From the IMG/VR virus record IMGVR_UViG_3300036900_000112, positions 1-41,813 of that record: 41,813 nt of DNA; one strand, 5' to 3'. Positions 24,308 through 29,881 of this stretch are shown piece after piece. Positions within the stretch are counted from its first letter, which is position 1; each line of letters starts with the position of its first letter. A program made the position numbers and the translations under genes. Source of the stretch: a virus. The notes below the pieces were generated by a model. It saw only the letters and a program-made list of their open reading frames with translations. It was not told where the DNA came from and did not search any database.

Positions 24308-24940
24308 GATTCGCTTCTCCTGGTTGGGTTTCTTGTCGGCAACCCGAAGCCCGGGCCCACCGCGCGCTTGCCAAACAATCGCGACGTGGTTGCCCACGAT
24401 GTCGCGCATGACGCCGTCGTACGCCTGACCGTCCGGGGTGGTCCCCGGGGTCATGTCGAGATCGAACGAGTAGCCGCAAGAGAGCTGGCTCTTGTCGTAC
24501 GTCACGACCATTTCGATCGTGCTGGCGTCCTTGAAATAGAGATTCGCGCCGAGATTGATGCCGTCTCCCGCCGGGGCTACGTCGTGGACGTCTCCGCTCG
24601 TCACGGAGCGGTAGTTGGACGCCGTCACACCATCGCTGGTCGATGGGTGATCGTTGGTGAGCGTCTGGCGCTCGAACGTGCTGTAGGACTCCGGCTTGAA
24701 GACTTCCTCGGGCGGCCGATAGAGCCGGATCGTGCGGTTGGTTCCCTCGATCCCGAGCTCACGAGCGCCGTACTCCTGGATGCCGGTCCGCGAGATGTTC
24801 GCGGGGGTAATCATGAAGCCCTCATCGGTCATGCGGCGCTTCGAGGCGTCGGCGATCTCGAACGGAAGCAGGTCGAACGCCTGCCAGCGCGTGGGCTTGC
24901 CAGCCTTGAAGTCGATCGCCTTTACGCGCTCGCGCTTCAC
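23651..24940 (-). CDS. DUF2213 prohead protease/scaffold fusion (429 aa, GTG start)
   Basis: The N-terminal domain (~1-205) is DUF2213: GFMITPANISRTGIQEYG, IRLYRPPEEVFKPES, LTNDHPS, SCGYSFDLD and GNHVAIVWQARGG all match. This family is thought to be a capsid maturation protease. The C-terminal half (~225-330) is Ala/Lys/Glu coiled coil, as in scaffolds, then a Gly/Ser tail. The start is GTG at 24940, overlapping the minor-head stop as GTGA. The frame is open upstream but as antisense of that gene. An internal start at codon 212 is listed separately. It resembles the Mu I/Z arrangement. Confidence 0.85.
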   Translation of the reverse strand: MKRERVKAIDFKAGKPTRWQAFDLLPFEIADASKRRMTDEGFMITPANISRTGIQEYGARELGIEGTNRTIRLYRPPEEVFKPESYSTFERQTLTNDHPSTSDGVTASNYRSVTSGDVHDVAPAGDGINLGANLYFKDASTIEMVVTYDKSQLSCGYSFDLDMTPGTTPDGQAYDGVMRDIVGNHVAIVWQARGGPGLRVADKKPNQEKRIMRTVTIDGTNVNFEDDNQGAMVEVALKRARDSVTAAEAARDAAIGESTAAKAALKAASDAATAAATEHAAKLAELQAKVVTDEQKAAMVQELTKAISDAKTILGDSFDSKGLGAPAIHIAALEHVAKDAAKYPGVMAVLGGVKPSEAKPEIAKLAFDAAVAVRAAGGAGFVFGSSSSANDAAARAFAPGKTGGGNTSGARVIDYNARQTRTNGGSASA

Positions 24941-26904
24941 GCGACCTCCCGCTGCTCGGCGGCGGCGGACGGCGCAAGCTCGCTGAAGTTCACGCGCGGG
25001 ATCGCGGCGCAGCGGCAGTTGTGTGCTACGATTCCGTTCGTGACATACCAACCGGCAGACGTCTCCAGGTTGAAGACATGACCCGCCCAATTGAATCGTC
25101 GCGCCTTGAGCACGCGGCTCGCCTGATGGCGGAAGGGAAGACCCTCGGCATGGCCGCCAAGATCGTCGGCGTCAGCGAGAACACGCTGTCCCATCGCCTG
25201 CGCGCCATGGGCGTGAAGACCGATCTCCGCGCTGGCCGCCCGAGCCATAACCGCGCGGAACTCGACGTCCCCGAGATCGTCGCCGCCTACCTGGGAGGAG
25301 AGAGCGAACTGTCCATTTCTCGTCGGCTCGGCGCCGACAGAAACGCCATTCGACAACGTCTGAGGGAATCCGGTGTTCAGCGCCGAACTGCCAGCGAGGC
25401 AAACAAGCTGCGAATGGGTCGCCTGTCGCCAGAAGAGCGACAGGCCTTGACCGAAGCGGCTCACGACGCTGCGCGCGGCGTTCGCCACACGGAGGAACGC
25501 CAGCGCAAGGCAGCCCTTGCCGAGGCTCGCATCCGGGGATTCGGAGAGCCCGAATTGGTCGCTGCGCTCCGCGCTCGCGGTCACCACGTCCACGAACAGC
25601 GGGCGTGCGGGAAATACAACATCGACCTGTCCGTCGGATCCGTCGCCGTGGAAATCCTGAACGGCAAGGCCCAGCGGATGAATCACGCAACCTTCCGACG
25701 CCGCCTGGAATATATCGGCGATCAGGGGTACTCGATTCTGCTCGTATACTTCCGACGCCTGGAATGGTTTCTCGGAAACCTCGATCACGTGGTCGCGCTC
25801 GTCGAGCTGGCCAAGCGGGAGCCAGCCTCGCGTCGTAAGCACCGGGTGATTCGGTGTTCCGCGGAGCGTTTTTCCAGAGTCCGTGACGATCTCGGTCAGT
25901 TCGCCGTGATACCAACGCCGATACGCTTTCTTCACGTCGTGAGCGAACTGGATCTCTGAGTCGCCCGGGAAGCACAGGATCGCCTCCCCGGGATGGACGT
26001 GCTCGCCATCGACGAGCGGCGGAGAATCCCAGCGCTGGCGCGTCCCCTCCATCGCTCGGTGCGACGGTCGCTCGCGCCTGTCCAGGACGCCGCTCCAGTC
26101 GTACTCCTCGATCCCGACGCTGGCCTGACGGACCTCGTTGAAGGCCGCGTTCATTTTCGATGTCTGATCGCGGGCGATGATCCGCGCTCGGCGCTCGGTG
26201 ATCTGGCCGATGTGCTTGACCTCGCTCGCCAGCGACTCCCAGCGCTGGCCGGTAGACCACGACTTCTCGACGGCGTCCTTGACCCTGTCGAGGTACTCGG
26301 ACGGGATCGACTTGATCAGCTCTACGTTGGCTGTCGCGGCCTCGCGCATGGCCGCGCCGATCTCCTCGGTCGGCGCCAGGTAGCTGCTGATGTCGACGCC
26401 GACGGAGCGAACAAGGTTAGCGGCGAGCTTCTCGTCGACATCGGCCAGCACGCGGCGTGCGGCGAGCCGTGCCATGGTCTCGGCCTGATGCTCGATGCCT
26501 CCGAAGCGGCGCGCGGCCTGCTCGATCAGCGTCGAGAGACCCGGCGCGGGCAGCGGTCCGCCGGGCGGCGGCGGCGGCGGAGCGTCGCGGCCCTGAATCG
26601 AGTCGCCGGTGGCCAGCGACCAGTGCGCCCGCATACCGGCCGCGACGTCGTCTCCGGCGCGCCGGCACTGAGCGACTACCTGATTCAGCGCGAACCGGTA
26701 GCGCAACTCCGTCGCTTTGGAGGGCAGCACAGGCCGGATGCGGCGAGCACGCGCCGCCTTGGCCCGAATCGACTTCGGGTAGAGCGATAGCAGCGTGTAA
26801 AGCAGCCCGCGGGCCATTTCCGTGGGACCACTCTGTGCCAATTTGGCAAGAATTGCAAATTCGGCACGTTTCGGTTCGCCCGGAATTGTCATTCTGTCAC
26901 GCAT
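24937..26904 (-). CDS. Mu F-like/SPP1 gp7-like minor head protein interrupted by an intein (655 aa precursor)
   Basis: The extein is a minor capsid protein of the Mu-F family. It contains ITERRARIIARDQTSKMNAA, then YDWSGVLDRRERPSHRAMEG, then DGEHVHPGEAIL|CRCAAIPRV, the conserved end of the family. The intein (residues 311-629) sits exactly between L310 and the family's conserved Cys, which supplies the +1 residue (C630). The mature protein would be 336 residues. The N-terminal ~130 residues are basic, with a Pro-rich linker. The start at 26904 lies only 20 bases from the divergent portal start. A second ATG lies four codons further down at 26892. Splicing must occur for a functional head protein, because the insertion breaks the CRC motif. 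Confidence 0.9.
   Translation of the reverse strand: MRDRMTIPGEPKRAEFAILAKLAQSGPTEMARGLLYTLLSLYPKSIRAKAARARRIRPVLPSKATELRYRFALNQVVAQCRRAGDDVAAGMRAHWSLATGDSIQGRDAPPPPPPGGPLPAPGLSTLIEQAARRFGGIEHQAETMARLAARRVLADVDEKLAANLVRSVGVDISSYLAPTEEIGAAMREAATANVELIKSIPSEYLDRVKDAVEKSWSTGQRWESLASEVKHIGQITERRARIIARDQTSKMNAAFNEVRQASVGIEEYDWSGVLDRRERPSHRAMEGTRQRWDSPPLVDGEHVHPGEAILCFPGDSEIQFAHDVKKAYRRWYHGELTEIVTDSGKTLRGTPNHPVLTTRGWLPLGQLDERDHVIEVSEKPFQASEVYEQNRVPLIADIFQAASEGCVIHPLGLAVQDFHGDGSDGQVDVVFPARPLFVDVVTASAERSDQFGLSESPDASLGKGCLALAFLRVANAARSVVSRFGQGLSLFWRQATHSQLVCLAGSSALNTGFPQTLSNGVSVGAEPTRNGQFALSSQVGGDDLGDVEFRAVMARAASAEIGLHAHGAQAMGQRVLADADDLGGHAEGLPFRHQASRVLKARRFNWAGHVFNLETSAGWYVTNGIVAHNCRCAAIPRVNFSELAPSAAAEQREVA
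25018..25974 (-). other. Intein (319 aa) in the minor head protein
   Basis: Block A starts with catalytic Cys1 in CFPGDSEIQ. Block B is LRGTPNHPVLT, with the T-x-x-H (residues 350 and 353 of the precursor). The region WLPLGQLDERDHV closes the N-terminal Hint part. Block F is GHVFNLETSAGWYV. Block G is GIVAHN followed by C+1. All splice residues (C1, T/H of block B, penultimate His, terminal Asn, +1 Cys) are present, so it should be active. Between blocks B and F lie ~220 residues with no LAGLIDADG or HNH motif. That spacer is the exact antisense of an endonuclease gene on the other strand. Confidence 0.92.
25078..25959 (+). CDS. Homing endonuclease, Vsr/EDxHD-type, antisense to the intein (293 aa)
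   Basis: Two helix-turn-helix segments (~16-45, GMAAKIVGVSENTLSHRLRAMG; ~63-100, ELSISRRLGADRNAIRQRL; last residues omitted) are DNA-binding repeats. The C-terminal core has GFGEPELVAALRARGHHVHE (~154-173), GKYNIDLSVGSVAVEILNG (~178-195) and MNHATFRRRLEYIGDQGY (~201-218). These correspond to the alpha-beta-beta layout of Vsr-like EDxHD endonucleases of split inteins. Candidate catalytic residues are E157/E159, D183, E192 and H203. A tail KHRVIRCSAERF follows, like the 'yrVI' ending of that family. The start ATG 25078 lies antisense to the His of block F; a GTG at 25021 is an alternative. Every codon is the reverse complement of an intein codon. It would cut intein-free minor-head genes. Confidence 0.82.
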   Translation: MTRPIESSRLEHAARLMAEGKTLGMAAKIVGVSENTLSHRLRAMGVKTDLRAGRPSHNRAELDVPEIVAAYLGGESELSISRRLGADRNAIRQRLRESGVQRRTASEANKLRMGRLSPEERQALTEAAHDAARGVRHTEERQRKAALAEARIRGFGEPELVAALRARGHHVHEQRACGKYNIDLSVGSVAVEILNGKAQRMNHATFRRRLEYIGDQGYSILLVYFRRLEWFLGNLDHVVALVELAKREPASRRKHRVIRCSAERFSRVRDDLGQFAVIPTPIRFLHVVSELDL

Positions 26905-26924: not shown

Positions 26925-28379
26925 ATGACGAAGGCTCGGAACGTCAAGAATGCAGCCGCCGCCCTGGCCCCTCCGGCGTCGGCCGCGGACCGCCTACCCA
27001 CCACGGCCCGGCGCGGAGAACAGCTCACCATGGCCGACGCACTCCGAAACGAGCAGTCGGGGCTGGGGACCTGGCGCGACAAGCGCTCCTTCTCCAACTA
27101 CGGCTTCGTCGGGCCGCTGGGGGATCAGCAACTTCGGGCGATGTTCCGCAAATCATGGCTGGCGAACGCCATCGTCACGATCCCGGTCGAGGACATGATC
27201 CGGGAAGGGATCACGGTGAAGTGGGACGGCATCACGAAGGATGACGCCGCCATCATCAAGCGCGCCGAGCGCAAGTTCCGGCTGAAGTCCGTTCAACATG
27301 AGGGGCTGACGTGGGGTCGTCTCTTCGGGGGCGCCGCGGTGATTCCGATCATCGACGGGCACGCCTTCGATCAGCCGCTCGACATGGCCTCCATCCGCAA
27401 GGGGTCGCTTCGCGGTTTCATGGTCTGGGATCGCACCTGGGTGATCCCGCAGGGCGGCGCTCCCGATCGGGATTTCAACAGCCCGAACTACGGCAAGCCG
27501 CTTTTCTACAGGGTCCGCCATTCCTCGGTCGAGGTTCACTGGTCGCGCGTGTTCCGCTTCGAGGGCCGCCTCATCGACTACGACGATTTCCTCGCCAACA
27601 ACTTCTGGCACGACTCCGAGCTTCGCCATGTCGTGACCTCGATGACGGACTACGACGGCAGCAAGGAGAACGTCGCCTCGATGCTCTGGGAGGCGAAGCT
27701 CGACGTCATCAAGACCTCGCTCGCGAAGATGATCGCCATGAAGGACGGCGGCGCCAGCGTCGAGAAACGCTACCGCGATGCCGCCCTCGGGAAGTCGAAT
27801 CACCGGCTGCTATTGATCAACAACGACGAGGAATACGACTCGAAGGTGCTCCAGTTCGGCGGCCTCGACAACGTGCTCGGCTTCTTCGCGATCGATGCCT
27901 GCGGCGCGGCTCGCATCCCGATGGTGAAGCTGTTTGGGCAGTCGGCCCCGGGCATGAACAGCACCGGCGACAATGACGTCCGCCTCTACTACGACCGCGT
28001 CTCGGGAGAGGACGAGCGCGTACGGTTGCCTCCGCTCACGCTGATGTACGAGATCATGATCCGCAGCGAGCTCGGCCGGCTGCCGGAGGGATTCGAGATC
28101 TGCCCGAACCCAATGTGGCAGCTCAGCGCGAAGGATCTCGCCGCGATCCAGTTCCAGCGCGCTCAGGCCGATGCGCTCTACGAGAAGATCGGTCTCCCGA
28201 TCGCCGCCATCTTCAAGCGCCTGAGGGACGAGGGCACCTACGATTTGTCCGACGACGACATCAAGATGGCCGAGGAGCTGGACGCGGCGATCCCGGAAGA
28301 GCAGGACGAACCGGACCCGCTGCCGCCTCCGAATTCGAATCAGCCGCCACCGAACCCGGACGACGAGCCGGCCGTTTAG
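26925..28379 (+). CDS. Portal protein, DUF1073-like (484 aa), on the opposite strand
   Basis: This is the dodecameric DNA channel of the head. DUF1073 signatures are 'WLANAIVTIPVEDMIREGIT', 'GRLFGGAAVIPIIDG', 'FMVWDRTWVIPQ', 'VHWSRVFRFEG', 'LLLINNDEEYDSKVLQFGGL' and 'IDACGAARIPMVKLFGQSAPG' (cut short here). The C-terminus is acidic and Pro/Asn-rich. Unlike every other head gene here it is on the plus strand. It starts 20 bases from the divergent minor-head start and ends convergent with TerL in a shared TTAG (4-base overlap). Its promoter must lie inside the minor-head gene or further upstream. The ribosome site is weak. Confidence 0.9.
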   Translation: MTKARNVKNAAAALAPPASAADRLPTTARRGEQLTMADALRNEQSGLGTWRDKRSFSNYGFVGPLGDQQLRAMFRKSWLANAIVTIPVEDMIREGITVKWDGITKDDAAIIKRAERKFRLKSVQHEGLTWGRLFGGAAVIPIIDGHAFDQPLDMASIRKGSLRGFMVWDRTWVIPQGGAPDRDFNSPNYGKPLFYRVRHSSVEVHWSRVFRFEGRLIDYDDFLANNFWHDSELRHVVTSMTDYDGSKENVASMLWEAKLDVIKTSLAKMIAMKDGGASVEKRYRDAALGKSNHRLLLINNDEEYDSKVLQFGGLDNVLGFFAIDACGAARIPMVKLFGQSAPGMNSTGDNDVRLYYDRVSGEDERVRLPPLTLMYEIMIRSELGRLPEGFEICPNPMWQLSAKDLAAIQFQRAQADALYEKIGLPIAAIFKRLRDEGTYDLSDDDIKMAEELDAAIPEEQDEPDPLPPPNSNQPPPNPDDEPAV

Positions 28380-29881
28380 TCGCCTCGATAGGCGTCGGCC
28401 ATTGAGAGTGGCTTCTCCATTTGCTTGAACGCGCCGGCGCTGGCGTCAACGGCGTCGTCCTTCACCTGCTTCGACGGGAATCCCTCCATCTGCGCGAAGT
28501 ATTGTGAATTCCACTTCCCGCGGACCACGTCCACATTTCCGTGCTGCCACTGGCGGGCGAATGGATTGGCACGGGTTGGCTTCGGCCCGGTCTCGCGCTC
28601 AAAGACAACATCGAAGCCGGCCAGGAACTTCGCGTAGTCGGCCGTCTGGTCCTTGCCGGCCTGGCCAGGATCTTCCGGTAGGCGGATCTTCGTCTGCTCA
28701 CCGTCTGACACCGCCGTGGCGCCGATGAGCTCGGCGACGGGATCGGATCGGAGCTGCACGAACTCCGCGTGCGCCACGACGAATCTACCGTTTTCTCGGC
28801 GGCCCATCTTCACGCCGCATGTCCAGTCCGGGTTCTTATTCTTGTCGCTCGGCTCCGTCGCGGCGAGGTCCCAGCTTCGCACCCACTCGACGACATCGTC
28901 CGGCTCCGCGTCGAGCATCGTGACTTCCTGACGCTTGAAAAAGTCGCCCGAGCTTGCCTTGGCCTTCCAGTTGCCGTCGAGCAAGATCGCGCGCTCGACG
29001 CGCGTCATCGCCATCAGGTTCCCGCGATAGGCGGGGTTCGATCGCTCGAGGATCTTGTTCTCCTTGAGCTTGCCGGGAATGAAGGTGATCGACTTGATCA
29101 GCGCTGCGGCTGCTGCCTCATAGGACAGTTCCGCTTCGCGCATCGCCTCCTCAACGCCGGCACGGACGTCCGGATTGGCGAGCACCTCTTCTGCGGTGTC
29201 GCACCAGACCATCTCGTCGCCGAGGCGCGTGAAATAGCGCAGCTTCCCGGAGCGCTCCGGGATCGAGAACCCATAGCGCGGGTTCTGGGATCCGTCGTCG
29301 AGGTATTCGTCCTGATCGATCCACCAGGAAATGAGCTCGGCCACCCACGAATCGCATTCGGGGTTCGTCGTCGCGATGATGTAGGGACGGACGCCGCAGG
29401 TTGATCGGTTGCGGCTGAGCATGTACCAGAACTGAGCCGCCGTGAACGAGGTCAGCTCATCGAAGATGAATAGCGGGACCTGGGCACCCTTCCAGTCGAG
29501 CACGGTGGAGTCGTGCTCAAGATGCGACATCTTGACCTTGGCGCCACGGGGCCAGATCCATTCGTGCGTGTTCTTGACCGGATTCGCGCCCAGCAGCGGG
29601 AAGACCTTGAACGACTCGTCCCAGAGCGAGCCGGGATTGGTGATGTCGGGGATCGAGCGACGGAAGAAGACGGCCGAGAAGCCGGGGACGTCCTTGTGAC
29701 GGGCTGCCGCCAGCATCTCGGCGAAGCTCTTGCCGCAGCCTGCGGCGCCGCCGCCGATCGTGATGTCGGCAGGCGAGGATAGGAACTTGGTTTGAAAGCC
29801 GGGCTGCGGGCCGAGGGTGATCGAGGCCGGGACGCCCGGAGGTGATCCGCCGCGCTGGGCGCTGGGCGCGATCTGCTTCAT
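28376..29881 (-). CDS. terL: Terminase large subunit (501 aa)
   Basis: This is the packaging motor ATPase and nuclease. Walker A is GGGAAGCGKS (~43-52). Walker B is VPLFIFDELT, with D141/E142. The Gly/Thr-rich coupling motif IIATTNPEC (~168-176) follows. The nuclease domain has RSWDLAAT (D338), the first acidic site, and KDDAVDASAGAF near the C-terminus, the last. The length is usual. ATG overlaps the small-subunit stop. The stop overlaps the convergent portal stop. Confidence 0.93.
   Translation of the reverse strand: MKQIAPSAQRGGSPPGVPASITLGPQPGFQTKFLSSPADITIGGGAAGCGKSFAEMLAAARHKDVPGFSAVFFRRSIPDITNPGSLWDESFKVFPLLGANPVKNTHEWIWPRGAKVKMSHLEHDSTVLDWKGAQVPLFIFDELTSFTAAQFWYMLSRNRSTCGVRPYIIATTNPECDSWVAELISWWIDQDEYLDDGSQNPRYGFSIPERSGKLRYFTRLGDEMVWCDTAEEVLANPDVRAGVEEAMREAELSYEAAAAALIKSITFIPGKLKENKILERSNPAYRGNLMAMTRVERAILLDGNWKAKASSGDFFKRQEVTMLDAEPDDVVEWVRSWDLAATEPSDKNKNPDWTCGVKMGRRENGRFVVAHAEFVQLRSDPVAELIGATAVSDGEQTKIRLPEDPGQAGKDQTADYAKFLAGFDVVFERETGPKPTRANPFARQWQHGNVDVVRGKWNSQYFAQMEGFPSKQVKDDAVDASAGAFKQMEKPLSMADAYRGD

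Follow-up and report, generated by a model that had tools for sequence, protein, structure and literature searches.

In large inteins, a LAGLIDADG or HNH domain in the same reading frame interrupts the Hint fold as a mobility enzyme; such inteins are inserted precisely in conserved motifs of host genes and are present or absent among close relatives. The EDxHD enzymes combine a Vsr-like catalytic fold with helix-turn-helix DNA-binding regions; members other than I-Bth0305I are reportedly encoded by free-standing genes between gene halves, in association with split inteins. In eukaryotic rDNA, the endonuclease gene of a group I intron can lie on the complementary strand, antisense to the gene that the intron interrupts. 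I-Bth0305I is itself a group I intron endonuclease (PMC3943268). The ShiLan domain is a homing insertion that is open in the host frame and hides an HNH endonuclease in the third frame of the same strand; it has no splicing domain and no detectable ribosome-binding site (PMC11855218). F-CphI is a free-standing endonuclease in collaborative homing and has an Endo VII motif (PMC6083498).

The window analysed here is a stretch of 41,813 nucleotides from a virus (IMG/VR record IMGVR_UViG_3300036900_000112). We are confident that its minor head gene contains a mobile intein with a homing endonuclease gene on the opposite DNA strand. Computation established that both frames are open and under selection, that the antisense product has a predicted nuclease fold and the intein predicted Hint-type ends, that active site and start signals are conserved, and that empty sites in close relatives and several host sites exist; antisense transcription, splicing, cleavage and homing are inferred. 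A first-pass annotation had read the locus as an intein with an antisense nuclease. That observation is confirmed and its interpretation largely supported, with homing activity an inference.

Compared with large in-frame inteins, the enzyme is encoded on the opposite strand as a protein in its own right, with separate start signals and a Vsr/DUF559-like fold. Unlike the EDxHD enzymes, it is nested antisense in a contiguous intein, and the histidine of the motif is not conserved. The ShiLan arrangement, a same-strand, out-of-frame HNH endonuclease without a splicing domain, does not apply; the element here is an intein, and its enzyme is on the opposite strand, Vsr-like and provided with a Shine-Dalgarno sequence. 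One copy, in an Acinetobacter phage, stands free by an intein-less MuF gene as F-CphI-type enzymes stand beside their targets, but F-CphI differs in its Endo VII motif and does not lie within a splicing element. Group I introns are excised at the RNA level and can do without an open frame on the other strand, whereas here both strands must code for protein. In a literature search, which did not cover Taylor 2011 or Dassa 2009, no paper turned up that describes an endonuclease encoded antisense to an intein, a layout for which the first-pass annotation had named no described family; the nearest precedent is ShiLan (PMC11855218). The mobile intein is a known class. The antisense-nuclease architecture appears to be undescribed in the literature found, and the double layout is conserved in more than 100 other phage elements.

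The intein of the head gene

The interrupted gene (24937-26904, minus strand; 655 amino acids) encodes a Mu-F-like minor head protein that matches PF04233 (9e-17, residues 207-311) and phrog_15127 (2e-86). The N-extein is encoded at 25975-26904 and the C-extein at 24937-25017, both on the minus strand, and the intein between them at 25018-25974 has the 319 residues and the full set of splice residues that had been claimed for it. The translation gives C1, T40-P-N-H43, G298-H299-V300 and H318-N319; the extein sequence CRC follows N319 and provides the +1 Cys. Residue 1, the block B TxxH and the C-terminal HN plus Cys thus satisfy the motif criteria for an intein. In profile searches, the intein matches phrog_15127 (5e-41) and the Pfam family Intein_splicing (PF14890; 3e-7), the latter under the curated cut-off of the family.

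The Hint-N half with blocks A and B (sense residues 1-66; 25777-25974, minus strand; pLDDT 77-92) and the Hint-C half with blocks F and G (sense residues 285-319; 25018-25122, minus strand; pLDDT about 80-93) both show a sense-type substitution pattern. AlphaFold2 predicts both ends with confidence as all-beta (pLDDT 77-93), in a model that was not compared with known folds. The spacer that separates them (sense residues 67-284; 25123-25776, minus strand) has an antisense-type pattern, and its residues 131-277 are predicted to be disordered (pLDDT 23-35). No nuclease profile was matched by the sense translation of the intein. An in-frame endonuclease domain like that of large inteins was not found in the spacer, and the claim that the nuclease is antisense rather than in frame stands. 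The spacer carries DFHGDGSDGQVDVV, the reverse complement of the active-site strand of the nuclease; in motif form, sense DFHGDGSDGxVDVV is the reverse complement of YNID..GSVAVE.

It could be that the nuclease homes but the intein no longer splices, the sense frame being a tolerated 319-residue insertion in the head protein as in ShiLan. There are no splicing assay data to set against this, and the Pfam Intein_splicing score is below the curated cut-off. Yet all splicing residues are present, the Hint-N and Hint-C halves are under sense-type purifying selection, and 117 of the 124 distinct inteins that make up our total set begin with Cys, most ending in HN or SN before Cys. We consider loss of splicing highly improbable and retain the reading as a splicing intein.

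The portal/MuF region has 26925-28379 on the plus strand against 24937-26904 and 28376-29881 on the minus strand. The portal is inverted relative to MuF, as it also is in L010 and L037, and in the window and L010 it is inverted relative to the terminase too; portal and MuF have the same orientation in most other loci. The start codons of MuF and portal are divergent and about 20 bp apart.

The antisense reading frame

The plus strand of the intein DNA encodes, as had been noted, a protein of 293 residues (25078-25959; 293 codons and a stop, with no internal stop), which is supported by the open frame, homologs, fold and substitution pattern. An in-frame GTG at 25021 would extend it to 312 residues; the conserved start is the ATG at 25078. 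The codons of the two strands are in register, with sense position 1 facing antisense position 3. Each sense codon is thus the reverse complement of an antisense codon, and a wobble position in either gene coincides with the first codon position of its partner.

No stop occurs among about 19,500 antisense codons from 83 loci, where about 300 would be expected at the rate of the exteins. This count is partly a result of construction, since the hits were drawn from stop-to-stop ORFs; these are mostly 220-440 amino acids long and span the interior of the intein. Across all 124 inteins, the 32,724 inner codons have 19 antisense stops, which, bar one near the start of the ORF, mark its natural C-terminal end (sense residues <=25). 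Several inteins have only 36-44% GC and their antisense frame is still open, so GC bias is not the cause. An antisense ORF arising by chance was rejected on the stop counts, on a sample collected with the Hint-N half only, on the codon-position test and on the choice of start and Shine-Dalgarno codons (all below). A search for a sigma-70-like promoter near the antisense gene found none; as 0.3 would be expected by chance, this result is uninformative.

Start signals of the antisense gene

The start codon (ATG, 25078-25080) is the reverse complement of the block-F His299 codon (CAT), which bears out the statement that the plus-strand protein begins at block F. It is preceded, across an 8-nt spacer, by AGG at 25067-25069, the start signals together occupying 25067-25080 of the plus strand. 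The block-F His of GHV(Y/F)NL is encoded by CAT (giving ATG) in 86 inteins and by CAC (giving GTG) in 20, compared with a CAT:CAC ratio of 257:475 in the exteins of the same phages (p=2e-19). The adjacent Leu is CTC in 79/107, compared with 949/3165 (30%) in exteins (p=6e-20). Together with neighbouring codons (Leu/Asn), this CTC spells GGAGG or GAGG on the complement, 8 nt before the start; the Shine-Dalgarno sequence of the window is weaker, with AGG only. Translation of the other strand would readily account for the codon choice in block F.

Fold and active site of the antisense protein

The AlphaFold2 model of the antisense protein (pLDDT 82.7), for which the alignment consisted of rows from viral contigs only, has two helix-turn-helix modules and an alpha/beta nuclease core; both of the helix-turn-helix segments recognised in the first-pass annotation are present. 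The first (residues 7-43; 25096-25206, plus strand) is made up of helices 7-18, 23-30 and 34-43 and resembles the DNA-binding domain of GcrA (Z 6.8). The second (residues 64-97; 25267-25368, plus strand) is resolvase-like, with an HTH_7 match in 12 of 32 members of the antisense family. The nuclease core comprises residues 151-272 (25528-25893, plus strand) and is assigned as Vsr/DUF559-like from profiles, fold and conservation. Its nearest folds are Vsr (Z 10.3, rmsd 2.7 A, 113 residues), 3hrl (Z 9.2) and I-Bth0305I (Z 9.0, 94 residues).

Profiles for database scanning were built from sets of closer sequences, a more heterogeneous alignment having proved unsuitable. A profile of 32 members of the family matches PDB 3hrl (DUF559-like; 6e-7) and 3r3p (the catalytic domain of I-Bth0305I; 3e-5). 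Individual members match the Pfam families MTES_1575 (best 1.9e-10) and DUF559 (2e-4), and the protein of the window itself gives only a weak nuclease-profile match (MTES_1575, E=0.002). Absence of any match to a nuclease would have refuted the first reading; the family matches nuclease profiles and folds. By profile, fold and acidic active site, it falls within the Vsr/DUF559/MTES_1575-like group, and by profile and fold it is related to the catalytic domain of I-Bth0305I.

The active site is formed by E157 (codon 25546-25548), D183 (25624-25626) and E192 (25651-25653), with R209 (25702-25704), all on the plus strand. E157 is conserved in 123/124 inteins, D183 and E192 in 124/124 and R209 in 117. 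Of the EDxHD residues, E and D are invariant, as is the additional E192, and the His is not conserved; D183 aligns with Ala in 3r3p. The proposed Vsr/EDxHD-like core therefore holds as far as the Vsr-like fold and the kinship to I-Bth0305I by profile and fold are concerned, but not for the EDxHD histidine. The enzyme is best called Vsr/DUF559-like (E157-D183-E192, R209).

Selection on the two strands

Substitutions were counted by codon position in 28 independent pairs of 60-93% identity. Within the spacer, the antisense wobble (sense position 1) has 2158 substitutions and sense position 3 has 1499 (p=1e-27), and the identity of the antisense protein (0.65) exceeds that of the sense protein (0.50). 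The pattern is reversed in Hint-N, with 425 substitutions at sense position 1 and 603 at sense position 3, and Hint-C (217 and 339) and the extein control (209 and 426) follow the same order. Divergence at antisense four-fold sites is 0.42 in spacer residues 130-270 compared with 0.53 at sense four-fold sites of the exteins, which indicates that the sense spacer is only weakly constrained there. Over the active site (sense residues 81-129; 25588-25734, minus strand), the antisense four-fold divergence is 0.28; given these slow sites, residues 81-129 may be constrained on both strands. The same residues have intermediate pLDDT in the sense model.

These counts bear directly on the proposal that it is the sense spacer that truly codes for protein, with the antisense ORF as a by-product whose in-register frame is held open through codon bias. 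In-register antisense ORFs are indeed common in GC-rich phages, and the constraint on residues 81-129 (0.28 against 0.42) would fit a spacer that codes. However, substitutions peak at the antisense and not the sense wobble, which already contradicts the proposal for the spacer. The frame is also open in the inteins of 36-44% GC, the antisense product matches nuclease profiles and a nuclease fold, the sense spacer is predicted to be disordered, the start and Shine-Dalgarno codons are chosen, and a free-standing copy exists with stops on its other strand. We give this proposal practically no credence and take the antisense gene as the one under the stronger selection in the spacer.

Relatives and sampling

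Searching with the plus-strand protein (tblastn) found homologs in 122 phage records, where the gene on the other strand usually bears a head-protein annotation; they include Aggregatibacter/Haemophilus Aaphi23 (34.5%, 5e-43) and phages of Klebsiella, Edwardsiella, Gordonia, Vibrio, Pseudomonas, Salmonella and others. Scans of viral contigs gave many further loci, and a scan of genome contigs gave one, on a Lachnoclostridium contig. Besides the window, both frames were open in all of the loci first examined except that of Acinetobacter phage P1068 (L028). To avoid the bias that searches based on the antisense protein or on motifs might introduce, loci were also collected with residues 1-66 of the splicing domain (Hint-N) as the only query. 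All 57 distinct inteins collected in this way have an open, homologous antisense nuclease frame where the contig allows (two of the 57 loci run off the contig end), and there is no mini-intein among them. Neither these 57 nor the total of 124 include an intein with a broken antisense frame and a retained sense spacer, the finding that would have counted against the first reading. No degenerate copy of the element was seen either, which speaks against homing.

Four inteins (L007, L076, L082 and L091) seem to start with Ala instead of Cys, which is class-2-like, and retain the antisense nuclease. Escherichia phage Snoke (L189, MK931441), which can be handled in laboratory E. coli, has an annotated intein-containing capsid morphogenesis protein, with the antisense gene unannotated.

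In phage P1068, the homolog is free-standing, convergent with an intein-less MuF gene, and has 12 stops in the opposite frame. The antisense gene therefore exists alone as well, and it is the intein that keeps the sense frame open elsewhere. Compared with about 1,800 scored shuffles, the tail of this copy over the region antisense to Hint-N ranked 1, 7 and 19 with different cuts; the evidence that the free-standing copy descends from a nested one is only suggestive.

Mobility and host sites

When the sequences on either side of the intein in Salmonella phage SaI_NFG_5577 are joined, they align without gaps over 500/500 nt to phage vB_CECAV_044 (90.6% identity), a clean empty site in a close Salmonella phage. 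Most of the joined query is also present, with lower identity, in more than 400 records, and Klebsiella Jedunavirus relatives show the same continuity across the junction. Precise empty sites, which mark the element as optional, are thus established in close relatives of family members but not of the phage of the window itself. The usual insertion site is the C-terminal CxC of MuF (95/124); further MuF sites are RTE/T and STLDxRT/C (slashes mark insertion points).

The element also occurs in other genes. In virus Rctr197k (L029, KX853510; 748-1632), it lies in a dCMP-deaminase-like gene (PF00383, 6e-11), and in L179 and L187 in genes with UDG and DNA-polymerase-A domains (PF03167, 5e-15 and 4e-15). 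The Rctr197k insertion interrupts the zinc motif of the deoxycytidylate-deaminase-like gene (PCVA/C...HN/CAK), and the head-morphogenesis annotation of this gene is probably due to the intein alone. L179 and L187 have a UDG-superfamily gene in one frame with DNA polymerase A domains. Distances of the nuclease core correlate more strongly with those of the Hint of the same element (r 0.69) than with those of the extein (0.51).

The antisense protein could be real and selected and yet have a role other than homing. It might regulate by binding DNA in spite of its nuclease fold, for instance, or be directed against competitor phages without moving the intein. There are no activity data, the nuclease fold is common to repair and restriction enzymes, and the nearly universal intactness is unusual for homing endonucleases. 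Such a role would nevertheless have to account for a gene located inside an intein that is polymorphic for presence and absence with clean empty sites, for the occurrence of the element at several MuF sites and in other genes, for the co-variation of the antisense protein with Hint and for an intact E/D/E active site. We regard it as unlikely and favour a homing endonuclease.

Discussion

If the locus is a mobile intein with an antisense homing endonuclease, the minus strand would be read with the head gene to give a precursor, from which Hint-N and Hint-C would excise the 319-residue intein and rejoin the head protein; the roughly 200-residue spacer between the two halves would be mostly unstructured. 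The plus strand would give the separate enzyme of 293 residues, whose two helix-turn-helix modules may bind the intein-less MuF site for cutting by the Vsr-like nuclease. Repair from an intein-bearing copy would then insert the whole 957 bp.

Both translation signals of the enzyme, its ribosome-binding site and start codon, lie in the complement of the block-F codons, and the two genes therefore cannot be separated without damage. We think it probable that the whole of this widespread clade of phage inteins is obligately bidirectional, with splicing protein and endonuclease in register and the block-F codons serving as ribosome-binding site and start. The homing cycle usually yields degenerate copies, and homing endonucleases often decay. 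If the bidirectional reading is true, a frameshift that kills the endonuclease also kills the head protein, which may explain the lack of mini-inteins and broken copies in the clade.

The locus is a clear example of a DNA segment that holds a protein gene on each strand, with selection signatures on both and a measurable hand-over between the strands, and the element is accessible in phages that grow in the laboratory. Part of the annotated 'spacer' of phage inteins, including the DFHGDG motif, is predicted to be the imprint of the antisense gene, and standard annotation overlooks this enzyme family in more than 100 sequenced phage records. Mobile inteins usually lose their endonuclease, and the arrangement suggests, in a form open to testing, how one might avoid this.
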